A stretch of DNA of 64,000 nt. It comes from Synechococcus sp. NB0720_010. GTDB lineage: Bacteria; Cyanobacteriota; Cyanobacteriia; PCC-6307; Cyanobiaceae. Of this stretch, positions 2,635 through 37,648 are shown in pieces; positions within the stretch are counted from its first letter, which is position 1; each line of letters begins with the position of its first letter. The stretch lies in assembly GCF_023078835.1 (NCBI RefSeq), contig NZ_CP090898.1, positions 1,800,045 to 1,864,044 on the forward strand, read 5' to 3'. The translations under genes and the position numbers were made by a program. The notes beneath the pieces were generated by a model. That model was not told the origin of the DNA. It saw only the letters and a list, made by a program, of their open reading frames with translations, and did no database searches.

Positions 2635-4995
2635 ATGCTCCAGGCGGTGCCCGGTACGGCAGAACGGTCCGCCTCCAGTGGGGCAGCGGCTGCTGCTGAA
2701 CGCCAGGGCCCAGGAGCGGCGCTCGGCAGACGGATCATCAACAGCCCCGCGGACTACGGCATTGAGCTGCCGGCGTGGCTGCACACCTGCATTGAGCACG
2801 TTCCCCCTGGGGTCGGGGAAAGTTGCCCCACCGACACCGAGGCGCTGCTGGCCTCAGCCTTCGACTTCGCGTTTCAGCTCCATGACGGCCAGGTGCGGGC
2901 CAGCGGGGAGCCCTACATCTGCCATCCCGTGGCGGTCGCTGATCTGCTGCGTGACATCGGTGCCAGTGCGGGGGTGATCGCCGCTGGATTCCTCCATGAC
3001 GTTGTCGAGGACACCGAGGTCACGCCAGAGGAGATCGAGCAGCACTTCGGCTCTGAGGTGCGGGGCTTGGTGGAGGGGGTCACCAAGCTGGGGGGCATTC
3101 ACTTCACCAACAAGACCGAGGCCCAGGCCGAAAACCTGCGCCGGATGTTCCTGGCGATGGCCAGTGACATCCGCGTGGTGCTGGTGAAGCTGGCTGATCG
3201 CCTGCACAACATGCGCACCCTCGGTGCACTCAAGCCCGAGAAGCAGCAGCGGATTGCCCGTGAAACGCGTGAGATCTACGGCCCCTTAGCCAACCGCTTG
3301 GGCATTGGTCGCTTCAAGTGGGAGTTGGAGGACCTGGCCTTCAAGATCCTCGAGCCCGAGGCCTTCCGCGACGTGCAGCAGCAGGTCTCCAGCAAGCGCA
3401 GTGACCGCGAGGAGCGCCTGGGGGTCACCGCCGACATCCTCAGTGGCAAGTTGTCATCCGTGGGGTTGGGTGAGTGCGAGGTCAGTGGACGGCCCAAGCA
3501 CCTCTATGGCATCTGGAACAAGATGCAGACCCAAGGCAAGGCTTTCCACGAGATCTACGACGTGGCGGCACTGCGGATCATCTGCCCGAACGTCGAGAGT
3601 TGCTATCGCGCCTTGGCGGTGGTCCATGACACCTTCCGCCCGATTCCTGGTCGCTTCAAGGACTACATCGGGCTGCCGAAGCCCAATGGCTACCAGTCCC
3701 TGCATACGGCGGTCATTGGTCGCCATCGGCCGATTGAAGTCCAGATCCGCACGGCCGAGATGCACCGGGTGGCGGAGTTCGGCATCGCAGCCCACTGGAA
3801 ATACAAAGAGGGCGGATCCCCCGCTGCCACCGGATCGGATGCCGAGCGCTTCAACTGGCTGCGGCAGCTGGTGGATTGGCAAAAAGATGGCGTGGGGGAG
3901 GACAGCGGGGACTTCCTGCGCTCGATCAAAGAGGACCTCTTTGATGAAGAGGTGTTTGTCTTCACTCCCGGTGGAGATGTGGTGGGCCTGCGCAATGGCT
4001 CAACTCCAGTCGACTTTGCTTATCGCATTCACTCCGAGGTGGGGAACCACTGCCAAGGAGCCCGCATCAACGATCGGCTCTGCCCTTTGGCAACGCCGCT
4101 GCAGAACGGCGACTTCGTTCAGATCCTGACTTCCAAGACGGCTCACCCCAGCCTGGATTGGCTCAACTTCGTGGCCACGCCCACGGCGCGTAATCGCATT
4201 CGCCAGTGGTACAAGAAGAGCCATCGTGAGGAGAACATCCAGCGCGGCACCGACATGCTCGAGCGCGAGCTGGGCCGTGATGGTTTTGACGCCCTCCTCA
4301 ATGGCGAGGCGATGGCGAAGGTGGCGCGCCGTTGCAACCTCGTCGGCACCGAGGATCTGCTCGCGGCCATTGGCTTTGGTGGCGTCACCCTCCATCAAGT
4401 CTTGAACCGCCTGCGGGAGGAGCTGCGCCTGGCCACCGAGGCCGAGGCCCCGGTCATCAGCGATGAAGAACTCGCCCGCAACCTCACCCAGCAAGGGGAG
4501 CAGACCTCGGGGCCATCGACTCCCCTGACGGGCCATGGCGATGCCAGCCCGATCCTGGGTCTCGAAGGCCTCGAATATCGCTTGGGCGGCTGTTGCAGTG
4601 CCCTCCCTGGCGAGGCGATTGTCGGCACGGTCGCCCTCGGCAACCACGGCATCACCATTCACCGTCAGGATTGCTCCAACCTCGGTTCAGTGCCGGCTGA
4701 GCGCCGTCTGCCGGTGCAGTGGAATCCCCAGGTCAGTGATTCCCAGCGTCGCCGTTATCCCGTTCAACTGCGGATTGAGGTGCTCGACCGGGTGGGTGTG
4801 CTGAAGGACATCCTCACGCGCCTGTCCGACCACCGCATCAATGTCAGCGATGCCCGGGTTCGCACCAATCCGGGCCGCCCTGCACGCATTGACCTGAAGG
4901 TGGAGCTGGAGAGCGCGAATCAGCTGAGCAACACCATGGATCAGATCCGCTCGATGGCTGATGTGCTCGACATCGCCCGCGCCGGCATCGGCTAA
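2635..4995 (+). CDS. relA: Bifunctional (p)ppGpp synthetase/hydrolase RelA/SpoT
   Basis: Makes and degrades the stringent-response alarmone (p)ppGpp. Domains in order: HD hydrolase with HDVVEDT (about residues 121-127), synthetase with the RFKDYI and PKPNGYQSLHT motifs, TGS domain (VFVFTPGGDVVGL), a conserved Cys-containing helical region (LGGCCSALPGE) and a C-terminal ACT domain (RIEVLDRVGVLKDIL). The RxKD synthetase motif together with an intact HD motif indicates a bifunctional Rel rather than a synthetase-only RelA. At 786 residues it is of normal length. Single gene with its own upstream region, divergent from the ABC ATPase. Confidence 0.95.
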   Translation: MLQAVPGTAERSASSGAAAAAERQGPGAALGRRIINSPADYGIELPAWLHTCIEHVPPGVGESCPTDTEALLASAFDFAFQLHDGQVRASGEPYICHPVAVADLLRDIGASAGVIAAGFLHDVVEDTEVTPEEIEQHFGSEVRGLVEGVTKLGGIHFTNKTEAQAENLRRMFLAMASDIRVVLVKLADRLHNMRTLGALKPEKQQRIARETREIYGPLANRLGIGRFKWELEDLAFKILEPEAFRDVQQQVSSKRSDREERLGVTADILSGKLSSVGLGECEVSGRPKHLYGIWNKMQTQGKAFHEIYDVAALRIICPNVESCYRALAVVHDTFRPIPGRFKDYIGLPKPNGYQSLHTAVIGRHRPIEVQIRTAEMHRVAEFGIAAHWKYKEGGSPAATGSDAERFNWLRQLVDWQKDGVGEDSGDFLRSIKEDLFDEEVFVFTPGGDVVGLRNGSTPVDFAYRIHSEVGNHCQGARINDRLCPLATPLQNGDFVQILTSKTAHPSLDWLNFVATPTARNRIRQWYKKSHREENIQRGTDMLERELGRDGFDALLNGEAMAKVARRCNLVGTEDLLAAIGFGGVTLHQVLNRLREELRLATEAEAPVISDEELARNLTQQGEQTSGPSTPLTGHGDASPILGLEGLEYRLGGCCSALPGEAIVGTVALGNHGITIHRQDCSNLGSVPAERRLPVQWNPQVSDSQRRRYPVQLRIEVLDRVGVLKDILTRLSDHRINVSDARVRTNPGRPARIDLKVELESANQLSNTMDQIRSMADVLDIARAGIG

Positions 4996-5050: not shown

Positions 5051-6166
5051 ATGCGTCGCGTCCTTGGGTTCCTTTTTGCGGCCTTGTTGATAGTGGGCCT
5101 ATGGACGGGAGCAGCCATTTCCGCCCAGGCTGCAGGCCTCCCAGCATTTGCGTTTCCCTTTTCCAAACAGCCTCTGACGCGGTACGACGGGGGGACGACC
5201 AAGCAGGTTGGGACCTATAACTTTCCCGTCAGTGAGGCGATGGCTGGCGTCTATATGACGTTGGAGCCTGGCGCGCTGCGGGAACTGCATTGGCACGCCT
5301 TTGCCGCGGAATGGGCCTATGTGATTGAGGGACGTACCCGGATCACCCTCACGAGTCCTGAAGGTGAAGTGCAGATCGCCGATGTTGATGCCGGTGGACT
5401 GTGGTATTTCCCCAAGGGTTGGGGTCACAGCATTGAGGGACTTGGCCCCGGGGAGGCCAAGTTTCTGTTGGTCTTCAATGATGGCTCGTTCAAGGAGGGA
5501 TCAACCTTCTCGATCACCGGCTGGATAGCCAATACCCCAGTCGCCTGGGTCAGTCAGAACCTTGGGCTGACGCCGAAACAGGTGAAGGAGCTGCCGGACA
5601 GGCAGGTTTACATCACCCGCAAGCCGCCGCGTCCAGGTCCGTTGGCGGAGACCGTCTCCCGCGACCCCAGCTTCAAACGCATGACGGAAAGTCATGTTTT
5701 TGATCTCGGTGGCCAGCCCGAGCAGTCCCGTGAAGATGGGTCTTGGTTGAAGATCGCCAGCGCACAAGAGTTCCCGGCCAGCTTCAACATGACTGGCGCG
5801 ATTGTGCATCTGGAGCCTGGAGCGCTGCGCACGATGCACTGGCACCCGAATGCAGCGGAGTGGCAATACGTTCTGAATGGTTCCTACGACCTCAGTGTTT
5901 TTGCCTCTGAAGGTCAGGCGAGTGTGAGTCGTCTCAAACGCGGTGATGTTGGTTATGTGCCTCGGGGCTATGGCCATGCCTTGATGAACACCTCCAGCGG
6001 AGCGACAGATGTCTTGGTGGTCTTTGACAGCGGTAGTTATGAGGCCATCAATCTCAATGACTGGTTAGCGGCTAACCCGGACAGTGTTGTGGCCAATAAC
6101 TTCGAAATTCCTCGATCGCTCGCCCAGCAGTTGCCCAAACGCAACGCCGATTTCGCTCCGAATTAG
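5051..6166 (+). CDS. Secreted bicupin, oxalate-decarboxylase-like
   Basis: A 371-residue protein with an N-terminal signal peptide (hydrophobic residues about 4-28, ending AQA) followed by two cupin domains. Each has a full metal set: HWH(80-82)/E87/His near 126 in cupin 1 and HWH(263-265)/E270/H309 in cupin 2. This is the Mn-dependent oxalate decarboxylase arrangement. The loop matching the active-site lid of Bacillus OxdC (SENST) reads KEGST here, keeping the catalytic Glu (E149) but changing Ser and Asn. Decarboxylation of oxalate to formate and CO2 outside the cytoplasm is the best guess; another organic-acid substrate is possible. First gene of a same-strand cassette, with the ClC gene starting 6 bases after its stop. 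Confidence 0.82.
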   Translation: MRRVLGFLFAALLIVGLWTGAAISAQAAGLPAFAFPFSKQPLTRYDGGTTKQVGTYNFPVSEAMAGVYMTLEPGALRELHWHAFAAEWAYVIEGRTRITLTSPEGEVQIADVDAGGLWYFPKGWGHSIEGLGPGEAKFLLVFNDGSFKEGSTFSITGWIANTPVAWVSQNLGLTPKQVKELPDRQVYITRKPPRPGPLAETVSRDPSFKRMTESHVFDLGGQPEQSREDGSWLKIASAQEFPASFNMTGAIVHLEPGALRTMHWHPNAAEWQYVLNGSYDLSVFASEGQASVSRLKRGDVGYVPRGYGHALMNTSSGATDVLVVFDSGSYEAINLNDWLAANPDSVVANNFEIPRSLAQQLPKRNADFAPN

Positions 6167-6172
6167 GCGTTG

Positions 6173-7438
6173 ATGTTGGGTCTCTCCCTGGGTGGAGTGT
6201 TGCTGTGGTTAAGCCTGGGCTTTCTCCTGGGGTTCTGGGAGTGGCCCTATCAACTGTTGTCCGAGCTTGGATTCGAGCTGCAGCAGCGGCTTTGGCCTGG
6301 ACCGACCCCGTTGGGAGTGGTGCTGGTCTTTGGCGGCACTGTGGCCCTGGTCGGTTTGGCCTGGGGACCGTTGGCCCGTGGTCGTAGCGGCGGCCTGACC
6401 CCTGTCCTGGCGGCCCAGCAGGACTCTGATCAGCCAGCTCTCCAGCAGGTTCTCTCGCTGAAGACTCAGCTTTATCGCCTGCCGTTGTTGGTGCTGACTC
6501 GCCTCAGTGGCGGAACGGTCGGTGTGGAGTCTCCCTCCGCTTCGCTTGGGGCCTCCTTCCTCCTGGCTTGTCGCAGCCGCTGCTCCCCATTGGCGGCCTT
6601 GCCCTTGCCACTCCTGCTGGCCATTGGCGGCGGCGCAGGTTTGGGTGCGGCCTTTCGTTCGCCGTTGTTGGGTGCCGCCTATGCGATCGAAGAATTAAGC
6701 CGTGAGAAGGGCCTGCGCTTGGTCCTGCCCACCCTTCTCTTGGCGGGTACGGGAGCGCTAGTGAATTCGCAGCTGGGTCAGCCCGCCCGCCTGGATGGGT
6801 TGCGCATGGATGCTCTGCCTTTGAAACTCTGGCCCTGGGTGCTGTTGCTCACCGTGTTGGCGTCGACCCTGGGCGGTTTGTTTGTTCGTTGCTTGATCCC
6901 ACTCTCGGTTTGTTTGACGCCATGGTTCAAGCGCACGCCCTGGCGCTCGTCCCTGGGGATTGCACTGGTCTTGACGCTGGTGGCTTGGCTCAGTGGTGGT
7001 TTAAGCCTCAATGACGGAGGGCTTCTGCTGGGACCAGCGCTGGCGGGCAGCGTGACTGTGCCCTCGGCCACCCTGATTTGGCGTTGGATCGCGTCGTTGT
7101 TGAGCATTGCCGCGGGTGTCCCGGGCGGCTTGATGCACGACACCATGACCCTGGGCTCCCTATTGGTAGGAGTGCTGCAGTCGCTGCCTGGTGTCGCCCC
7201 ACTTCCGGCGACGGCTATTGCTCAGTTGGCGGCCGTTGGTGCGACCGCTCTGTTTGCCGGAGCCAACGGCACGCCATTGTTTTGTGCTCTGTTTGTGTTC
7301 ACCCTGCAGGGGGATTCCGCACTCTTGCCCGTGCTGTTGCTGGTCAGCGCCGTCAGCACCGCTTGGGTGGGGATGTGGCGCGGACCCACCTGGAATGAGG
7401 CGCAGTTAGAGACCGCCATGGCGCACCACACCCGATGA
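6173..7438 (+). CDS. ClC-type anion channel/antiporter
   Basis: A 421-residue membrane protein with about ten hydrophobic segments and the ClC family landmarks. GGTVGVESPSASLGASF matches the selectivity-filter region normally reading GREGP. RSPLLGAAYAIEE matches the region with the internal proton Glu. Both glutamates that define ClC proton/anion antiporters are kept, but the filter is altered (GVESP). The ATG at 6173 is preferred; a TTG directly before it is also in frame. The stop overlaps the next start by 4 bases (ATGA), so translation is probably coupled to the acyltransferase gene. The transported anion is unknown; chloride, or an oxalate or formate-like anion linked to the upstream bicupin, is speculation. 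Confidence 0.8.
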   Translation: MLGLSLGGVLLWLSLGFLLGFWEWPYQLLSELGFELQQRLWPGPTPLGVVLVFGGTVALVGLAWGPLARGRSGGLTPVLAAQQDSDQPALQQVLSLKTQLYRLPLLVLTRLSGGTVGVESPSASLGASFLLACRSRCSPLAALPLPLLLAIGGGAGLGAAFRSPLLGAAYAIEELSREKGLRLVLPTLLLAGTGALVNSQLGQPARLDGLRMDALPLKLWPWVLLLTVLASTLGGLFVRCLIPLSVCLTPWFKRTPWRSSLGIALVLTLVAWLSGGLSLNDGGLLLGPALAGSVTVPSATLIWRWIASLLSIAAGVPGGLMHDTMTLGSLLVGVLQSLPGVAPLPATAIAQLAAVGATALFAGANGTPLFCALFVFTLQGDSALLPVLLLVSAVSTAWVGMWRGPTWNEAQLETAMAHHTR

Positions 7439-8583
7439 GCCTCCAGGTTCTGCTGGCTGATACCCCCGAGCTACGGGAGGCCATCTATGCACTGCGCTAC
7501 GTGATTTATGTGGAGGAGATGGGCAAATCGCCTCCGGCCGCAGATCACCAGCGACGCTGGATTCGCGATGGTCTGGATGCCACCGCCCGTCTCTACGCCG
7601 TTCAGGACGAGGCCGGCACCTTGGTGGGCACGCTGCGCCTCAATCGACTGAGCGATCTGAGTGACCCGACCACAGAGCTGGCGCCCCTCCCGATCGCGAC
7701 GCTGTTGGAGCGTTTCCCTCCCGAGGCGATCTCCCACACCTCACGCCTGATGCTCCTGCCCGCCTGGCGCGGAGGGGCTGCGCTGGGGTTGCTGTTCAAC
7801 CGTTGCTACGGCGATGCAGCTGAAGCCGGAGTCCGCGTCGATCTCTGCCACGCCAAGCCTGGTCTGGTGGAGCTCTATGAGCAGTTGGGTTATCGCCGCT
7901 TCTGTCCAGGCCTCGATCTGAAGGGGGTGGGGTATCAGGTGCCGATGCTGCTGGCCTTGCATGACCGCGCGCATCTGCGTGAGAGCCGTTCACCGCTGCT
8001 CCGTCACCCGGCTAGCCGCCAGGGTGAAGACCCTTGTGGTGATGCCACCTGGATGGCCTCGATCGCGGAGAGCTATCGCGGTCTCAATCACCGCCTGGTG
8101 GAGCCCGATGCGTTCTGGGGTGCCGTGGGTGATGCCCTGCGGGAGGGCGAGCAGGAGATTCCTCTCTTCCGCGGCCTGAGCGAGGAGCAATCGCGAGCCT
8201 TGCTCAAGACGGGGACCGTGCTCAGCTGTCAGCCCGGTGATCCCCTGGTGAGGGAGGGGGAGCCGCAGCAGGAGCTGTTTGTGGTGCTGGAGGGCGTCGC
8301 GGAAGTGTGGCGAGAGCAGGAGGGGCATCGGCTCTCCTTGGCGTTGCTGGAGCGGGGCGCTGTCTTTGGAGAAATGGGCTTCCTCGGACGCTCGCGTCGC
8401 AGTGCCGATGTGATCGCCGTGACGCCGATGCGGGTGCTGGTGCTCACCCAGGCTTTTTTGAATCGTTCCATTCGGCATCAACCGGATGCCGCGGCATTGC
8501 TGCTCCGTAACCTCTCGATGGTGCTGGCGGAGCGGTTGGCTCAGACCACCGATCGCCTCTGGCAGCTGAGCCAATTCACTTGA
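7435..8583 (+). CDS. FeeM-like N-acyltransferase fused to a cyclic-nucleotide-binding domain
   Basis: A 382-residue two-domain protein. Residues about 1-185 resemble FeeM/autoinducer-synthase-type GNAT acyltransferases: YALRYVIYVEEMGK, LRLNRL, SRLMLLPAWRGG, YEQLGYRRFCPG and VPMLLALHDRAHL. This family makes N-acyl amino acids or related signals. Residues about 245-375 form a CNB domain whose phosphate-binding cassette has GEMGFLGRSRRSADV, with the Glu and Arg kept, so cAMP or cGMP binding is plausible. The fusion suggests acyl transfer gated by cyclic nucleotide. It overlaps the ClC gene by 4 bases and is directly followed by a methyltransferase. The acyltransferase subfamily is recognised by pattern only. 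Confidence 0.78.
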   Translation: MSLQVLLADTPELREAIYALRYVIYVEEMGKSPPAADHQRRWIRDGLDATARLYAVQDEAGTLVGTLRLNRLSDLSDPTTELAPLPIATLLERFPPEAISHTSRLMLLPAWRGGAALGLLFNRCYGDAAEAGVRVDLCHAKPGLVELYEQLGYRRFCPGLDLKGVGYQVPMLLALHDRAHLRESRSPLLRHPASRQGEDPCGDATWMASIAESYRGLNHRLVEPDAFWGAVGDALREGEQEIPLFRGLSEEQSRALLKTGTVLSCQPGDPLVREGEPQQELFVVLEGVAEVWREQEGHRLSLALLERGAVFGEMGFLGRSRRSADVIAVTPMRVLVLTQAFLNRSIRHQPDAAALLLRNLSMVLAERLAQTTDRLWQLSQFT

Positions 8584-8597
8584 ACGCCCCAATTCCG

Positions 8598-9410
8598 ATG
8601 GCCGCTGTCTCCTCCGCCGGCTCCTACGACTTCAACGCCCTCGGCAGCGCGAGCGGAGAGTTGGACCGTCTGCAGCTGCAGGCCCGACGCTCCGCGGAAC
8701 TGGAGCGCGGGCTGCTGCTTCAGATGGGCTTGCAGGACGGTCAGGAGGTGCTCGATCTGGCCTGTGGTCCCGGTGTGATCAGCCGCCTGATTGCTGAGAC
8801 CCATCCCGCCAGCCGGGTGACTGCGATGGACCTCAATGGCGAGCTGCTGGATGCCGCGCGTCAGGAAGCTGCGGCCGCCGGCCTGGAGCGGATCACCTTT
8901 GTGCAGGGTGATGTCTACGCACCGCCGCTGGAGCCCGGCCGCTTCGATTTCATCTACGCCCGGCTGCTGTTTCAGCACCTGGAGGATCCGCTGCGGGCGT
9001 TGCAGGCGGTGCGCGCACTGCTCAAGCCCGGCGGCAAGCTCTGCATCATGGACATCGACGATGCCTGGCTGAGCCTGGTGCCTGAACCCGAGGGCTTCCG
9101 GGCTTTCACCGAGGCTGCGGCCCGTGCCCAGGCCAAGCAAGGGGGCAATCGCAACATTGGCCGCGAGCTGGGCGGCCTGCTCGAGGCGGCGGGCTTCAGC
9201 GATGTGAATGTGCACGTCGAAACCGTGAACTCGCGTCAGCTCGGCATGCGCGCATTCCTCGACATCACCCTCGGCTTCAAGCGCCTGTTGCTCAGCGGCG
9301 CCGAGCTCGAGGCTGCGTCCAGCACGCTCGCCGCTGCGGATGCCTTGGTGGATGACCCCCAGGCCTGGGCCTTTGTGGGCGTCTTCCTGGCCAGCGGTTC
9401 TCGTCCCTGA
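8598..9410 (+). CDS. SAM-dependent class I methyltransferase
   Basis: A 270-residue protein with a Rossmann-type methyltransferase fold. Motif I is LDLACGPG, the acidic strand ends in TAMDLNGE, and LLKPGGKLCIMDID is the post-motif strand. This resembles the broad Methyltransf_11/25 group, whose members methylate small molecules. A TTG at 8580 overlapping the previous stop could also start it; the ATG at 8598 is preferred. It is the last gene of the 5051-9410 cassette, so its substrate may be the product of the acyltransferase next door, which is inference only. Confidence 0.82.
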   Translation: MAAVSSAGSYDFNALGSASGELDRLQLQARRSAELERGLLLQMGLQDGQEVLDLACGPGVISRLIAETHPASRVTAMDLNGELLDAARQEAAAAGLERITFVQGDVYAPPLEPGRFDFIYARLLFQHLEDPLRALQAVRALLKPGGKLCIMDIDDAWLSLVPEPEGFRAFTEAAARAQAKQGGNRNIGRELGGLLEAAGFSDVNVHVETVNSRQLGMRAFLDITLGFKRLLLSGAELEAASSTLAAADALVDDPQAWAFVGVFLASGSRP

Positions 9411-9521: not shown

Positions 9522-9710
9522 ATGACCTCCGAACAGGCCGCTCAACTGATTGATGATGCCCTCGATCTGGTGCATCAGCGGTTGATCTCCCTGGAGCATG
9601 AGGAGCAGAGCCAGGCCCACCAGGCCCTGATGGAGGAGTTCCGCGAGTGGCGTCATCCACCCGGCGGGCAAATCGACTTGATGGTCTGCCCGGGGTTCTC
9701 CGCGAGCTAA
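9522..9710 (+). CDS. Small hypothetical protein (62 aa)
   Basis: A short, mostly helical and acidic protein (EQAAQLIDDALDLVHQRLISLEHEEQSQAHQ), with no cysteine cluster or membrane segment. It begins with an ATG, has GC-rich third positions like its neighbours, and sits immediately before mnmE on the same strand. It looks like a genuine picocyanobacterial small protein, but I do not recognise a function. Confidence 0.55.
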   Translation: MTSEQAAQLIDDALDLVHQRLISLEHEEQSQAHQALMEEFREWRHPPGGQIDLMVCPGFSAS

Positions 9711-19033: not shown

Positions 19034-20017
19034 TTGAGCGCTCTCACTAGCGGTCTGCCCGCGCAGCTGTTTGTGATCGATCCGATCGCACGGCTGCGTC
19101 CAACCAAAGACTCCAGCGTCGCCCTGATGCAGGCGGCCCAGCGCGCCGGTCAGCAGGTCTGGGTCTGTACGCCAGCCCAGCTTTCCGTTCAAGGCCAGGA
19201 CGCCCTGGTGCAGGCCCAGCCGATTCGCCTGGCTGAGATCAAGCCAACGGCCAGCGGTTGGGACCTCCCGGACCAGTGGTTTGAAGCGGATGAGCCCCGC
19301 TGGCTTCCCCTCAGCAGCTTTCCGCTGGTGTGGATGCGCAAGGACCCACCGGTGGATGAGGCGTACCTCTACGCCACCCACCTGTTGGAGCTGGCGGAGC
19401 GCCAGGGGGTGCGGGTCCTGAATCGCCCCGCTTCGCTACGGGCTTGGAACGAAAAGCTGGGAGCGCTGCGTTGGAGCCATCTGATGGCCCCCAGCCTGGT
19501 CAGCGCTGATGTGGAGCAACTGGCGGCCTTTGCTGCGGACCACGGTGATGTGGTGCTCAAACCCCTCGGCGGGCGAGCCGGTCAAGGGGTCGTGCGCAGC
19601 CATGGAGCAGCGCCGGGTTTAAAGGCCCTGCTTGAGCTGGTCACGGCCCAACAGGCCCTGCCGGTGATGGTCCAGGCCTTTCTCCCAGCGGTGACGGCCG
19701 GTGACAAGCGCATCCTCTTGGTGGATGGTGAGCCCCTGGGGGCGGTGAACCGAAAGCCCGCGGCCGGGGAGTTCCGCAGCAACCTCGCGGTGGGTGGCTC
19801 GCCCCAGGCGACGGAACTGACGGAGCGGGAGCGGGAGATCTGCGCGGAGTTGACCACAAGCCTGCGGGCAGAGGGGCTGTTCTTCGTCGGCATCGACGTC
19901 ATTGATGGACGCCTGAGTGAGATCAATGTCACCAGCCCCACCGGCGTGCGTGAGGTGGAGCGTCTGAGCGGTATCCCCCTGGCCGATCAGACGCTGGAGC
20001 GCCTCCTAGCTGGGTAG
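19034..20017 (+). CDS. gshB: Glutathione synthetase
   Basis: ATP-grasp ligase that joins gamma-glutamylcysteine and glycine. It has [18 protein letters not shown], the ATP-grasp stretch [14 protein letters not shown] and the C-terminal [18 protein letters not shown]. It starts with TTG 2 bases after grxC and is 327 residues long. Its last 37 bases recur at 21810-21846, so the present C-terminal dozen residues ([12 protein letters not shown]) appear to have been supplied by the inserted DNA downstream. The protein is intact. Confidence 0.95.
19981..20017 (+). repeat. Direct repeat copy A (3' end of gshB)
   Basis: A 37-base stretch beginning GGCCGATCAGACGC and ending at the gshB stop codon. 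It matches 21810-21846 at 35 of 37 positions; the two differences are C/A at base 14 and G/C at base 32. Weaker similarity (ATCCCC runs with small indels) continues about 10 bases upstream of both copies. It marks the left edge of the AT-rich insert. Confidence 0.9.
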
Positions 20018-20022
20018 GGGGG

Positions 20023-21681
20023 CTAAAACACCAAAAGTAAGTCGTTGTGTGGGTAATACCCTTGGCGGGTGGAGTTCAGGTTGACTTCATAGAGACGCTT
20101 GATGTCTTCGAGCGAGACTTGTTCAAAGAAATCCTGATGACTGGTGGTTCTCATAAGGAGAACCTTCTCGCACTGATCGATTGCTTCATAAAATAGTTCT
20201 GGGCCTTCCTTGGTTCTTTGCAGCCCGTAAGGCCAGAATTCAACAACTGCGAACCTATGACACTCTTTGTGGAGGGTCTTGGTTCCACCTTTGAGTACAT
20301 GCCCTTCGTGTCCTTGGGTGTCGATCCACGCAAGAGTTTTGTTGGGTGAGAGGGTATGTGCATAGCGATCTGTTAAAGAGTCGAGCTTGAAAACGGTTGT
20401 TCTAGCGGTCCTTCTCTTGGACTCGTTGTCTACTTCTTTCGCATTTTTGGGGATCCTTGGATCTCGCACGCGATGATCGCCGCAATTTCTTGAGCAGAGC
20501 TCAAGTTCAGCGTCCCCGTCAAAATCGCTTACTGCAGCATTGATCGCGCTGAAATAAGGGCTTAAGTTGTTGAGAGAGATGTTTTTCTGTAGAAGTTCAA
20601 AATTGATCGGGCTCGGCTCAATTGCAATGCATGTTTGGTAGAGCTTGCTTTTAAGTGCATAGATTGAATACAGGCCAATGTTGGCGCCGATATTTAAAAA
20701 GTTCTCAGGCGAAAATCCCCACTTTTCCACAAGGTGCTCCGTCGTAAGCCGGATATTGTGCTCGTGATAGTGACGATTTCTCTTTAGTTCGTTTGTTAAG
20801 TAGTCCTCTTTGAGGCAAAATAATTGAAACAGCCGTGTCTTTATAAGTGTATGATTGCTCGTTCCTTGGTCGCGCCTGGCTAGTCGCTGTTTGAGCCACT
20901 TGAGGCTGGCTCTGTGGCCATGATTATTGCCTTCTGCAGTCCAGTATCTTGCAGGCATATAAAGGGACTCGGTGTCGTATATTTCCTCTAGGCAGTGAAG
21001 TAGTTCATTCTTTATGAAAAATGCATTTACACCGCTAATATTGCATGAGACTAGTGTGAATCCGAGATTGCTCATCATCTCGACCCATGACTGCAGGGAT
21101 GAGCCGTAGTAGTCATCTCCACCCCATTGATGATTGTTCTCGGGGGTGAGTTTTAGCGCTATTGGAGGCCTGAACTTTGCATTGTACTCAACGCAGATTA
21201 ATTTTGGATTTAAGGTTTGTATGAACGTTGGGGCTATTTCTTCGTCATAGCCATCGATGTCAATGCTCAGGAAGTCTAGTGAATCTGTTCCAAGGAATCC
21301 CTTGCAGCGTTTCGGCAGTTCGTCTTCACTTGGCGAAATGAGCTGTTCTATGACAAGGAGATCGTCGAAGCTGCGCCCTCCAATATTAGTTGCAATGAAA
21401 TCGATATTGGATTTTGAGCCGTCAATCCATACCCCGCGGTAGCCCTTTAGCAAGAGCAGGTGAGAATTGTTTTCTGTCCCATTGCCGCATCCTATCTCGA
21501 CAAAAGTTTTGCTTTCGGCGGAAACATTTCCTATCCTCTTCAGGCAGTATTCAATAATTCCGTCCTCATCCGTTTGTGAGTAGCTCTTCCATCCGTGCAG
21601 GATGGGATTGTGAGGTGTCCTCTCTCTGATCACCGTTTTTATTTCGGTGATTGCTTGCTCTATCTGTAGCTCTTTGCTCAC
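20023..21681 (-). CDS. Double-domain FkbM-family methyltransferase-like protein
   Basis: A 552-residue protein with two Rossmann methyltransferase-like modules. The first (about residues 55-240) has FVEIGCGNGTENNSHLLLLKGYRGVWIDGS and LDFLSIDIDGYDEEI. The second (about 320-530) is FkbM-like, with FLNIGANIGLYSIYALKSK, AIEPSPINFELLQKN and AWIDTQGHEGHVLKGG. FkbM proteins O-methylate sugars or polyketides and are common in glycan and cell-surface islands. GTG start. Base composition and codon use are unlike the neighbours (many AT-ending codons), supporting horizontal acquisition. No glycosyltransferases are adjacent, so the substrate is unknown. Confidence 0.8.
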   Translation of the reverse strand: MSKELQIEQAITEIKTVIRERTPHNPILHGWKSYSQTDEDGIIEYCLKRIGNVSAESKTFVEIGCGNGTENNSHLLLLKGYRGVWIDGSKSNIDFIATNIGGRSFDDLLVIEQLISPSEDELPKRCKGFLGTDSLDFLSIDIDGYDEEIAPTFIQTLNPKLICVEYNAKFRPPIALKLTPENNHQWGGDDYYGSSLQSWVEMMSNLGFTLVSCNISGVNAFFIKNELLHCLEEIYDTESLYMPARYWTAEGNNHGHRASLKWLKQRLARRDQGTSNHTLIKTRLFQLFCLKEDYLTNELKRNRHYHEHNIRLTTEHLVEKWGFSPENFLNIGANIGLYSIYALKSKLYQTCIAIEPSPINFELLQKNISLNNLSPYFSAINAAVSDFDGDAELELCSRNCGDHRVRDPRIPKNAKEVDNESKRRTARTTVFKLDSLTDRYAHTLSPNKTLAWIDTQGHEGHVLKGGTKTLHKECHRFAVVEFWPYGLQRTKEGPELFYEAIDQCEKVLLMRTTSHQDFFEQVSLEDIKRLYEVNLNSTRQGYYPHNDLLLVF

Positions 21682-21809
21682 GATAAACTTGCTGAGGAGT
21701 GTGGTTGCCTGGGTATAGCTTATCCATTCCTTGGTCTGATGCCTTTGTTTTTGCGAGTCTTGACTTGGGGTATGTTTTTGCGTTCTCTATCCCCACCCCA
21801 TCCCCCCTT

Positions 21810-28279: not shown

Positions 28280-28966
28280 ATGGCCTCGCCGCTGGCTACG
28301 GAATCACCCAGCATTAATCGGGCCTGGGAAGCCTTTGTTGCTCACGTGCCTGCGATTTTGTTGGCCTGGATCGCGGCGATGGGCATCAGCGTGATCGGCA
28401 CGGTGGTCTATTTCGTGATCAGTGCCTTGCTGACGATGCTCAGCGGCGCCGACCCCAATGGCGGTGGAACGGTGTTGGCCATGGTCCTGGGGCAGCTCGG
28501 TCAGTTGCCCTTCATGGTCCTCTCCAGTTTCGTCGGGGTGTTGCTTGCGGCTATTCCCGCTCTCTATTACGAACGCGGTGAGGTGATTACGGTTCAGGCT
28601 GCCTTTGCAGCGCTGTTCGAGAAGCCCTGGCGTTACCTCTGGGCTGGTGTTCTGTTTACGGTCCTGGTTCTGGTGGGCTTCCTCTTTTGCGTGCTTCCAG
28701 GGGTGTTGATTTTGTTCGTCACCCCTCTCTATGTGAATCGCATTTTCAACACTAACTTGAGCGTGACCGATGCTTTTGCCGCGTCGGTCCAGGCCCTCTT
28801 TCGCTCTCCCCAGGGGATCCAGTATTTGGGTCTGGAACTGCTCACGACCCTTCTTGTTCTGGTGGTGTCGATCTGCACCTGTGGTTTCGGCGCGCTTTTG
28901 GCGCTACCGGTGAGCTCTTTTTACCTGCAGAATGCCGCTTACAGCAAGGGTTTAATTAGTTCGTGA
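28280..28966 (+). CDS. Hypothetical multi-pass membrane protein
   Basis: A 228-residue protein with about five to six hydrophobic segments and few charges, e.g. AILLAWIAAMGISVIGTVVY and LFTVLVLVGFLFCVLPGVLI. It resembles the loose group of DUF-type membrane proteins with a glycerophosphoryl-diester-phosphodiesterase-like membrane region, without a catalytic domain. A similar-style protein lies at 33416-34186. The frame continues upstream but the ATG at 28280 precedes the first conserved hydrophobic part. It converges on the patatin gene with an 11-base overlap. Confidence 0.75.
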   Translation: MASPLATESPSINRAWEAFVAHVPAILLAWIAAMGISVIGTVVYFVISALLTMLSGADPNGGGTVLAMVLGQLGQLPFMVLSSFVGVLLAAIPALYYERGEVITVQAAFAALFEKPWRYLWAGVLFTVLVLVGFLFCVLPGVLILFVTPLYVNRIFNTNLSVTDAFAASVQALFRSPQGIQYLGLELLTTLLVLVVSICTCGFGALLALPVSSFYLQNAAYSKGLISS

Positions 28967-30680
28967 TTGGTTGGAGCTCTACGCCTTGTAGCTTGTTCTT
29001 CGCCTCTCTGTAACCGGCTTCGAGCGCTGTGTCGCAGCAGCTCCAGTCGAGGAGCCCTGCTGACATCAGGTCTGGTTTGAGTACACAGTCCGCAAGATGT
29101 TCCGCGTCGTCTGACTTTTGTCGTGCAGCGCCCAGAATGGAATACAAGATTGTGTCGGTTAGTAATGGCATCGATCGCTTGGCCAGGCCGGCCCTGGATA
29201 GCCATTGAATGATGGCGCCTTTGCTATCGGCAAGCGTTGGGATCGTGCGTTGGCCCTCTCCATGGTCGAGAGAGATTGCGATCACGACTCCTGAAGTTGA
29301 GCTCCGCGCTTCGGTAATCGGAAGGTTGTCAATAACGCTGCCGTCAACGTGAAGAGAACCATCCTCCATTTGGACCGGTGGAAGTATGCCTGGAATCGAC
29401 ATGCTCGCGATCACGCGATCCAGTAGGTTCCCAGCCGACCAGGCTGTCAGATGGTTTCTTGAGATATTTGTGGAAAGTGGTCGAAAAGGAATCCAGGTGT
29501 CGTGAATGTCGAAACTGCTGTAATCGGTCTTGAGTTGTTCGAGGCCTGTGCTGTACTGAAGAAGGGAGTGGAATGACGGGGAAAAAGAGTAGGGAGAGCC
29601 ATCGACAAAAATCACTCTCATGTACTTATAAATAGCCTCCCAGGGCATCTCAAAGGAGCAAAGCATGCCAACGAAGGATCCAATACTGACCCCGTAGATC
29701 AAATCAAGTTCTAGTGCTCTTGTCTCTTGAAGAGCCTTGATGGCGCCGACATGTGCGAAGCCCTTGGCTCCTCCGCCCCCAAGTACCAAAGTCGTTGCGA
29801 TTCCAAGGATGCACCGCGCCGCTCTTAAGGCGTCGGTTTGACAATCTTTGCGCACATTGTAGACATGGTGAACTGTTAGGCTGCTTGCCCTTTCTTGTAG
29901 CGGATCGGGTTTTTCCTGCTCCGATGGCCAGAGTCGAATGAGGTCAACCACTTCATCCTTTCTGGTGGATATCTGGGCACTAATCTCATTGCCGCTGATC
30001 AAAAGAAGGTTGGCATCAATGAGCTTTAGGTTGGAAGCCGAGATCAGTGTGTGTTCGTCAATGAGGAATGCGACTGAGCGTTCATTCTCGATCGATCGAG
30101 TGATATCGGCGATTTGTTCCTCGTGTGGCCATGTGCCTCTGCGTTTGTCAATGATGTCGATCTTTTTTGATTGAGAGAGTGCGTCGCAGAGTTGCTCCGC
30201 TCCGCTGGAGTCGGTGCGATTCAGGCTGTCTCTGATCACAATGAGCCTTGCGCCATGGCCCTTGTTCAGTGTTCTTCCTCTCGAGGCCTCGCGTGCGATT
30301 GAGGCCAGCATTCTTTTGCAGAGTCTCGGTGATTGATCCAGTAATTGGTTGAACGCGTCGCTGTCAATGGAAGCAAGAGTGCTCTCCGTTGTGGCGATCG
30401 CGGTTGCTGATCTCGCATTGCCGCAGAGCATTGCGTATGTTCCAAAGAGGCTTCCTTTTGAAGCCCTGTGAAATGGCGTTTTCGTTCGTGAGTTGGATAA
30501 TTCATAAAGGCTGATAATGCCTTCCAGTACGACATAGGCTTTTCCGCCTGTGTCGCCCTGTTGAAAGATCAACTCATCGGGTTCGAAATGCTCGACTTTG
30601 AACAGTTCGCCTTTGATGTCGGACGGATCAATGCAGTCAAAGAACGGTGAGATACTGACCAGCTTCTCGATGATTCTCAT
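28956..30680 (-). CDS. Patatin-like phospholipase with N-terminal CNB domain
   Basis: A 574-residue NTE-like protein. Residues about 1-125 form a CNB domain whose phosphate-binding cassette reads FGTYAMLCGNARSATAIA: the Arg is kept but the usual Glu is Thr, so ligand binding is doubtful. The C-terminal patatin domain has the oxyanion loop GGGGAKG (about 301-307), nucleophile Ser in GVSIGS (about 329-334) and catalytic Asp in DGSVIDNLP (near 445). Members hydrolyse phospholipids or lysophospholipids at membranes. The ATG at 30680 is preferred to a TTG 18 codons upstream. Composition is clearly AT-richer than the neighbours, suggesting transfer. Confidence 0.87.
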   Translation of the reverse strand: MRIIEKLVSISPFFDCIDPSDIKGELFKVEHFEPDELIFQQGDTGGKAYVVLEGIISLYELSNSRTKTPFHRASKGSLFGTYAMLCGNARSATAIATTESTLASIDSDAFNQLLDQSPRLCKRMLASIAREASRGRTLNKGHGARLIVIRDSLNRTDSSGAEQLCDALSQSKKIDIIDKRRGTWPHEEQIADITRSIENERSVAFLIDEHTLISASNLKLIDANLLLISGNEISAQISTRKDEVVDLIRLWPSEQEKPDPLQERASSLTVHHVYNVRKDCQTDALRAARCILGIATTLVLGGGGAKGFAHVGAIKALQETRALELDLIYGVSIGSFVGMLCSFEMPWEAIYKYMRVIFVDGSPYSFSPSFHSLLQYSTGLEQLKTDYSSFDIHDTWIPFRPLSTNISRNHLTAWSAGNLLDRVIASMSIPGILPPVQMEDGSLHVDGSVIDNLPITEARSSTSGVVIAISLDHGEGQRTIPTLADSKGAIIQWLSRAGLAKRSMPLLTDTILYSILGAARQKSDDAEHLADCVLKPDLMSAGLLDWSCCDTALEAGYREAKNKLQGVELQPITN

Positions 30681-30853
30681 GCGGGTCAGGCTTGGCCTTC
30701 TGCCTACCGTATGAAGGCAGTCGTGGCTCGTCAAGGAGAGCGCCTTACAGTCTGCTGGTCCTCGCGAAAGATTCCGTTTAGAGATTGTGTGAGGTTGGTG
30801 AGTCTATGCGCTCTATCTGTGTCGGCCTCACCTCTGATTGCTGTTAATAGCAA
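30681..30853. other. Non-coding gap between ndhH/DUF2752 and the patatin gene
   Basis: The longest stretch without a gene in the window (about 170 bases). It must hold the patatin promoter on the minus strand. A small hairpin-capable TTGCT/AGCAA pair lies just before the DUF2752 stop. No tRNA-like or riboswitch-like fold is recognised. Confidence 0.4.
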
Positions 30854-31276
30854 CTAACTCAAGAGCGGGAAGTGAAGCCATGCGGGTGCTGCCATGTCTC
30901 CAATGTTGACGACAATGCGCATGAGCCAGTAGGCAAGCAAACCGACGGCGAAGCTCCCCAGGGGCCAGGCCGGGATCCCCCGCGGCAGCAGGCGCCTTTG
31001 GCGGATCGAGAACACGGACCAAGCCAGTAGGGCCCCCGCCACCACTGGGCCAAAAGCATGGAGCTGCAGGGCCCCATCAAGATTGCCGGTCAAGCTGGCG
31101 GCGGTGGCGCGGGTCAGATAGCAGGTCGGGCAGGGAACGCCCGTGAGTGCCCGCAGCGGACAGCTCCAGCCGGGCAGGCCCGGGTGCAGGCCCTTCAGCC
31201 AGAGCGCGCCGGTGAGTCCGGCAGGCAGCAGATAGCCGCTGAGTTGAATCCGTTGAAGAAACCGATTAGCGGTCAA
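30854..31276 (-). CDS. DUF2752 membrane protein
   Basis: A 140-residue protein with three to four hydrophobic segments and the DUF2752 signature, a Cys-containing stretch [19 protein letters not shown] (normally CPxxGxTRA). Function unknown. It starts with TTG inside the last codons of ndhH (11-base overlap), so it is probably translated from the ndhH message. Confidence 0.8.
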
Positions 31277-35978: not shown

Positions 35979-36710
35979 ATGAGCCTCGAACCTGATACCC
36001 AACAAGACGTCACGCCAGCGGCACCAGCCCGTTTGCTGTTGGTGGATGACGAACCGGGGTTGCGCACGGCCGTGCAGGCCTACCTCGAAGACGAGGGTTT
36101 TGTCGTCACGACAGCCGTCGATGGAGAGGACGGTTGGGCTAAGGCCCAGGAGCTGCTGCCCGATGTGGTGATCAGCGACGTGATGATGCCCCGCCTGGAT
36201 GGCTACGGCCTGCTGCGCAAGCTGCGGGAGGACGAGCGCCTGGGCGGCACCCCCGTCATTTTCTTGACGGCCAAGGGCATGACGGCCGATCGCATCGAGG
36301 GCTTCCAGGCCGGCTGCGACGACTACATCCCCAAGCCGTTTGACCCCGACGAGCTGGTGGCCCGGGTGCACAACGTGGTCAAGCGTCAGGAGCGCCTGTT
36401 GACCGAGGCCGCCCGCTTCGCCGATGCGGACATCGGGCAGATGGCCAAGCAGATCACCGAGATCCGCTCCCTGCTGGCCACCGGTGGCAGCAAGCAGCCC
36501 ACTGCGGCGGTGAAGCATGAGTTCACCCCCCGGGAGGCCTCGGTGCTGCAGCTGGTGGCGGAGGGAATGATGAACAAGGAGATCGCCCGGCGTCTGGAGA
36601 CCTCGATCCGTAACGTCGAGAAGTACGTCAGCCGGCTGTTCACCAAGACCGGCACCGCCAGCCGCACGGAGCTGGTGCGCTACGCCCTCGAAAACGGCCT
36701 GGTTGAGTAG
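35979..36710 (+). CDS. rre1: Response regulator, Rre1/Ycf29 type
   Basis: A 243-residue NarL/LuxR-class regulator. The receiver domain has LLLVDDEPGLRTAVQAYLE, the phosphoacceptor Asp in VVISDVMMPRLDGYG and the conserved Lys in YIPKPFDPDEL. The C-terminal HTH has FTPREASVLQLVAEGMMNKEIARRLETS and RNVEKYVSRLFTKTG. This matches the cyanobacterial and plastid Ycf29/Rre1 regulators, which act with Hik2 in stress responses (established for model strains). No kinase gene is adjacent. The orthology is by pattern recognition. Confidence 0.85.
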   Translation: MSLEPDTQQDVTPAAPARLLLVDDEPGLRTAVQAYLEDEGFVVTTAVDGEDGWAKAQELLPDVVISDVMMPRLDGYGLLRKLREDERLGGTPVIFLTAKGMTADRIEGFQAGCDDYIPKPFDPDELVARVHNVVKRQERLLTEAARFADADIGQMAKQITEIRSLLATGGSKQPTAAVKHEFTPREASVLQLVAEGMMNKEIARRLETSIRNVEKYVSRLFTKTGTASRTELVRYALENGLVE

Positions 36711-37648
36711 GGCCTGGCTGCCGGCGGCCCTCAACCGCGGTCACCGCTACCGGGACCGGGTCCAGGCGGCCGCCCAGAGCACGGTTGGCTATTACGCCGA
36801 GCGCTATGGCCATTCCGATCCGTCGGTGTGGAGGGAGCGCCTGGCCGCCGGTGAGATCTGGTGCAACGGCCAGCAGCTCCGGGCCGATGCAGCGTTGGCA
36901 GCCGGGGATCAGTTGATCTGGCATCGGCCCCCCTGGGAGGAGGCCGCCGTGCCGGTGCTGAGTCAGCGCGCGGTCGTCTTCGATGACGGTGATCTGCTGG
37001 TGCTGAACAAACCCAGTGGCCTGCCGGTGTTGCCCGCCGGTGGATTCCTGGAGCACACCCTGCTGACGCAGCTCCAGGCCTGGGCGCCCGAGGCTCGGCC
37101 CGTGCATCGCCTGGGGCGATTCACTTCGGGCCTGCTGGTCTGCGCGCGGCAGCGCGAGACCCGGGCGCAGCTCAGTGCCCAGCTGCGGGAGCGCACCGCA
37201 GCATCAGCCGTCGTCTCGTGGGGTCGGTGTTGTGTATATGAGACAGGCGGCCGACTGGCGCTGCGGCGAGAGCCGAGCGATCACGGTTCCCATTGGCCGG
37301 CGGCCCCATGTGCTGCTGGGGCAGTTGTGGTGCGCGGCCCTCCCGGGCGATCCCTCAGCCCTGGAGTCCCGTAGTGCCTTGACCCTGCTCGAGCGCCGGC
37401 CGGTGGGCTGTTTGGTGGAGGTGGAGATTGCGACGGGACGGCCCCACCAGATCCGGATTCACACCGCCGCCTTGGGCGCTCCACTGCTGGGGGATCCCCT
37501 GTATCTGCCGGGCGGAGCGGCGCGCCCTGAGGTGCTGCCCGGAGCCGGTGGCTACCAGCTCCATGCCCATCGCCTGCTTTTGGAGCCGAGGGGTTTGGCG
37601 CTGGAGGCGCCCCTGCCCTCAGGCCTTCTCGAAGGCCAGCAGCCGTGA
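36703..37648 (+). pseudogene. RluA-family pseudouridine synthase, frame-broken (probable assembly artefact)
   Basis: Two frames together encode one RluA-like protein. Frame 1 (from TTG at 36703, overlapping the rre1 stop) carries the N-terminal part to LSAQLRERTAAS (about 37209). Frame 2 resumes after about 37246 with WRCGESRAITVPIGRRPH, then GRPHQIRIHTAALG and LLGDPLY. The break region 37213-37246 is nearly identical to an Illumina Nextera adapter, so the native gene is probably intact and the assembly wrong there. The catalytic-motif region reads HRLGRFTSG, with Gly where RluA enzymes have Asp. The 3' end overlaps the chlM 3' end by 30 bases. Confidence 0.8.
37213..37246 (+). other. Nextera Read-2 transposase adapter-like sequence
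   Basis: Compared from memory with the 34-base Nextera Read-2 adapter, 30 of 34 bases match in register without gaps. The last 19 bases cover the Tn5 mosaic end (16/19). The mismatches are at 37223, 37228, 37230 and 37239. The match coincides with the frame break in a conserved gene and with loss of recognisable protein similarity. Confidence 0.85.

Follow-up and report, generated by a model that had tools for sequence, protein, structure and literature searches.

Synechococcus sp. NB0720_010 carries an RluA-family gene that appears to be broken, and the question raised by this locus is whether the break belongs to the living organism or to the assembly. We addressed this question in a 64,000-nucleotide stretch of the genome (hereafter, the window), with G023 and G013, the two closest complete relatives, used for comparison. 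Our analysis indicates that the 34 bases at the break are almost certainly a degraded Nextera Read 2 (Tn5ME-B) adapter that escaped trimming and became part of the assembly, which would make the break an artifact and not biology. The features of the locus are as follows.

36703 to 37212, + strand: 5' native part of the RluA-family gene, 88% protein identity to G023
37213 to 37246, + strand: putative degraded Nextera Read 2 (Tn5ME-B) adapter copy, 30/34 positions identical
37213 to 37227, + strand: adapter primer part, 14/15
37228 to 37246, + strand: adapter Tn5 mosaic end part, 16/19
37247 to 37648, + strand: 3' native part of the RluA-family gene in another frame, including the stop, 83% protein identity to G023

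The sequence of the Tn5ME-B oligo is printed in an excerpt of PMC10849192. Positions 37213 to 37246 align to this 34-nt adapter without gaps and are identical to it at 30 positions, and the counts in the earlier note, including 16 of 19 for the mosaic end, were obtained again. The 15-nt primer part is followed directly and without a gap by the 19-nt mosaic end, which is the layout of the adapter, although the copy departs from the exact synthetic sequence by four substitutions (C>G at adapter position 11 and A>T at positions 16, 18, and 27). The runner-up site for the adapter in the whole window reaches only 20 identities of 34. Under an independent-base model with the base composition of the window, the expected count of matches with at least 30 identities is 9.7e-10 per window and 3.7e-8 per genome, in line with the earlier statement that a chance match is very unlikely. 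The mosaic end, with up to three mismatches allowed, is matched once in the window (0.00 expected) and once in the whole 2,410,448-base genome. The primer part with up to two mismatches gave 9 matches in the genome compared to 19 for a reversed control pattern; it is uninformative alone, and it is the combination of primer part and mosaic end that is meaningful.

The adapter had also been placed exactly where the gene changes frame and loses similarity, and the comparison with close relatives that had been proposed bears this out. The ortholog is intact in both G023 and G013, each being 318 codons long when counted from the start aligned with 36703. When the G023 ortholog is aligned to the window by tblastn, similarity in frame 1 extends as far as 37212 and is picked up again in frame 2 at 37250, and in the DNA alignment the codon at 37247 to 37249 pairs with native sequence as well. 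Both edges of the adapter are thus both breaks in homology, with similarity ending at 37212 and returning at 37247. Between the breaks, the window has the 34 adapter nucleotides where G023 and G013 each have 45 nucleotides (15 codons), a segment that encodes a K-V-Y-R-A-L motif. Given that the window is 11 bases shorter than the relatives here, the frame changes, and the frame of the 5' part stays open across the adapter until it meets a stop at 37374. The suspicion that native sequence is missing is therefore upheld; the loss would amount to 45 bases if the gene had the same length as in G023 and G013, and the linker ahead of K-V-Y-R-A-L varies in length among other relatives.

This interruption stands alone among the genes that we compared. 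A survey of 56 nonoverlapping G023 frames conserved in G013, 53 of which have a counterpart in the window, found only the RluA-family gene to be interrupted within the gene (1 of 53). Three other G023 frames gave extra matches in the window. A frame change at 53.4 to 53.5 kb was considered as a second broken gene and rejected, as it falls in the spacer before the likely start of that gene. The extra matches of the second frame were attributed to the tail of a stop-to-stop open reading frame (the main match covers 0.90, and G013 behaves in the same way) and to a paralog at 23%, and that of the third frame to a paralog at 24%.

Each of the four mismatches exchanges A with T or C with G, as had been noted from the sequence, and this pattern was counted against the artifact. 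Complementary swaps made up only 6 of the 22 mismatches in nine degenerate copies elsewhere, and at that rate the probability of four out of four is near 0.006 to 0.012. Two further properties of the copy were counted against the artifact: the 5' frame through the adapter reads Val-Tyr, as in the K-V-Y-R-A-L of the relatives, and one of the four changes removes a stop that the exact adapter would bring. Both would be accommodated if the adapter had come in but was blended, with an assembler or polisher keeping some native bases and so producing the four differences, and adapter position 11 is indeed G in both relatives when they are aligned from the left break. However, a comparison by hand found the other three changed bases in neither relative, whichever of the two breaks the alignment was started from. 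We consider blending of this kind rather unlikely. A mixture of the Read 1 and Read 2 adapters and the IS50 outer end were each tried as a source of the changes, and either would explain at most one of the four when compared by hand.

In two-color Illumina chemistry, A and T differ in one channel, as do C and G, and one-channel flips would give complementary swaps. The 70 bases from 37247 contain 6 complementary differences to the relatives compared to a mean of 1.4, a level reached by 1.2% of 55,205 stretches. Differences of every kind are raised in this 70-base stretch, though, and another place reaches 10 complementary differences, so clustering in the native flank did not make a convincing case for the color-channel idea. 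The excerpt of PMC6791352 contains nothing bearing on two-channel error spectra.

We then considered that the gene could be a genuine pseudogene in the organism, with the adapter merely covering the broken spot. The sequence is compatible with this, given that the native stretch is missing, but both halves are otherwise open and 83 to 88% identical to the intact G023 protein, and we regard this explanation as very improbable. The halves match consecutive parts of TIGR00005 (8 to 155 and 196 to 271 of 298) and the two ends of PF00849. For PF00849, the 5' part scores 44.3 bits (cutoff, 26.8) and the 3' part 20.2 bits, which alone is below the cutoff, compared to 62.2 bits for the intact G023 ortholog; for TIGR00005, the scores are 91.1, 50.2, and 138.9 bits, respectively, all below the cutoff of 192.7. 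The gene therefore resembles RluA-family pseudouridine synthases in the profiles that it matches but differs from them in being interrupted here. The claim that the apparent pseudogene is artifactual is strongly supported on sequence grounds, and the RluA-family gene is most likely intact in the living organism.

That the 34 bases are truly chromosomal, either as a pseudogene segment resembling the synthetic adapter or as a laboratory-made tag of the strain, is likewise very improbable. The earlier note had named relatives carrying the same 34 bases as an observation that would overturn its view. We searched 386 genomes of the phylum with the 34-mer, leaving the four differing positions free and allowing up to three further mismatches, and found the stretch in one genome only, that of the window itself, which leaves the view of the note standing. 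The orthologous stretches of G023 and G013 share 15 to 16 of 34 positions with the adapter, no better than random DNA nearby, and the best adapter site in each of six 20-kb stretches from relatives reaches 19 to 21 of 34. The mosaic end alone, with up to three mismatches, occurs in 2 of 25 genomes of the genus, the window's own and G010. In the latter the mosaic end is present in three exact copies, of which two sit at base 1 of their contigs and are plain adapter leftovers.

Within its own genome, which is a single contig rated 99.99% complete, the window copy has no companion. P7 and P5, with up to three mismatches, had no match each in the whole genome, and a TruSeq 13-mer with up to one mismatch had three matches, none exact, compared to five for the control. 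Neither P7 nor an index sequence lies upstream of the window copy, where the best P7 site nearby reaches 12 of 24. With no other adapter trace in the genome, the window copy represents a single event, and this lack, like that of P7 or an index upstream, was counted against the artifact. The idea that a real gene was recently broken and that the 34 bases are its native DNA, resembling the adapter by chance, would suit an inexact match in a single contig of such completeness with no other adapter piece found. It is hardly credible, however: the match alone is expected 3.7e-8 times per genome, it would need to fall by chance on both breaks of the only interrupted gene as well, and it is approached in none of the 386 phylum genomes but its own.

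We return to the adapter that was left in the assembly. The mosaic end faces genuine sequence, with homology resuming at 37247, the base right after the adapter. Given that the last base of the adapter abuts this resumption, a Tn5 transposome cut would have placed the adapter directly to the left of the base now numbered 37247. A read or contig with the adapter at its head may then have been attached to the left flank, whose last base is 37212, with native sequence lost at the joint, a loss that is seen in the comparison with the relatives. The four mismatches are probably base errors made where coverage was thin, and they may be the reason that the copy escaped adapter screening at submission.

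Leftover adapters in public assemblies allow this arrangement to be compared. Two public contig collections were searched with the 30 matching letters fixed and the four differing positions free, a design in which errors elsewhere in the adapter are undetectable. Among the matches listed, which came from at least 120 stretches per collection, there were 253 copies, of which 251 were exact and 2 had one difference. In 249 of these 253 listed copies, the adapter lies no more than 100 bases from the end of the stretch on the adapter's 5' side, and the mosaic end thus faces the DNA that was kept, as in the window. Of the other four listed copies, two are preceded by P7-like sequence, a third is found 8 bases past a run of N, and the fourth is in the middle of a contig. 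Exact adapters near contig ends are common in public assemblies, among the matches listed. These leftovers share their sequence, the order of their parts, and the orientation of the mosaic end with the window copy, which differs from them in being internal to a single-contig genome, away from a contig end, and in having four mismatches. The contrast between 251 exact copies among the 253 listed and four mismatches in the window was counted against the artifact. The exact 34-mer of the window had no match in the viral_contigs collection, and its variant of the primer part was found in none of the papers searched.

Finished records were searched by blastn at an E value of 0.01, and adapter matches were found in 4 of 5426 complete E. 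coli genomes, 17 of 72,556 plasmids, and 76 of 50,697 phage records. Few finished E. coli genomes contain an internal copy (4 of 5426 at the E-value limit used). The best copy was inspected in 13 of the 97 records, namely the complete set of four E. coli genomes plus four plasmids and five phages, picked for mismatches or for position in annotated genes. Of the first eight copies inspected, six have poly-T, P7-like, and index-like sequence upstream as judged by eye, and two do not. The four E. coli chromosomes with inexact internal Nextera copies (L293 to L296) are the following.

NZ_CP054388.1 (L293, E. coli 1517k)
NZ_CP071328.1 (L294)
NZ_AP024114.1 (L295)
NZ_CP069692.1 (L296)

The best copy in each is internal and differs from the adapter at 2 to 4 of the 34 positions, and none is exact. 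Two of the four lie within annotated genes, a glycosyltransferase gene and ybjT. The glycosyltransferase copy, in E. coli 1517k, has replaced native bases; clear identity to another strain is back right after the last base of the adapter, and 62 other genomes match the region at 95 to 99%. Like the window copy, it is internal and inexact, replaces native bases of a gene, and lacks P7 upstream; unlike the window copy, it has two mismatches, neither of them complementary, and a less sharp left edge. E. coli 1517k presents the situation of the window in a species with many relatives. In the case of ybjT, the gene is annotated as frameshifted with an internal stop, and the comparison strain is annotated as frameshifted too. 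The L294 copy is intergenic, upstream of acrE, and the L295 region has no match in any other of the 5426 E. coli genomes.

Among the phage records, MK327945.1 and MK327946.1 (L305 and L306), both titled complete genome, contain exact adapters preceded by poly-T, P7-like, and index-like sequence. The copy in MK327946.1 lies at the junction of two genes that share the annotation baseplate hub subunit and tail lysozyme.

Through an artifact of this kind, a genome rated 99.99% complete comes to include a pseudogene and a protein that are not real and to lack a piece of its native sequence. Best copies that are only inexact are what would be expected if screening at submission removes the exact ones, and the inexact copies that survive may be mistaken for gene losses in comparative work. 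The use of the finding lies in the correction of the record and in an example of inexact adapters surviving in finished genomes; its biological interest is low.

The RluA-family gene has a further property of its own. Positions 37105 to 37131 of the window encode HRLGRFTSG, with Gly in the place of the Asp in the HRLD of two solved relatives. We take this Asp to be the catalytic residue of RluA-family pseudouridine synthases, and the window gene does not have it. HRLGR is found in the window and in 24 relative loci (L002 to L024 and L026) of the 25 retrieved that extend as far as the motif; the exception, L029, has HRLD, is 41% identical to the query, and is probably another paralog. The motif raises the possibility that the ortholog group is a conserved pseudouridine synthase that is inactive or altered.

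Elsewhere in the window, a low-GC gene on the - strand at 20023 to 21681 encodes an FkbM methyltransferase domain (PF05050) in a 20- to 22-kb block of 48% GC. The G023 counterparts leave a gap at 20014 to 21803 around this gene, and the region at 20023 to 21681 is probably an island. At 28956 to 30734, also on the - strand, a protein with cyclic nucleotide-binding and patatin-like phospholipase domains is encoded in a block of 55 to 58% GC, and the G023 counterparts flank this gene, ending at 28960 and starting at 30863. A run of four genes on the + strand at 5051 to 9410 encodes a two-cupin protein, a member of the CLC chloride channel family, a protein with GNAT/FeeM-like and cyclic nucleotide-binding domains, and a methyltransferase; the G023 counterparts on either side end at 4992 and restart at 9682, and the run is probably an insertion relative to G023.
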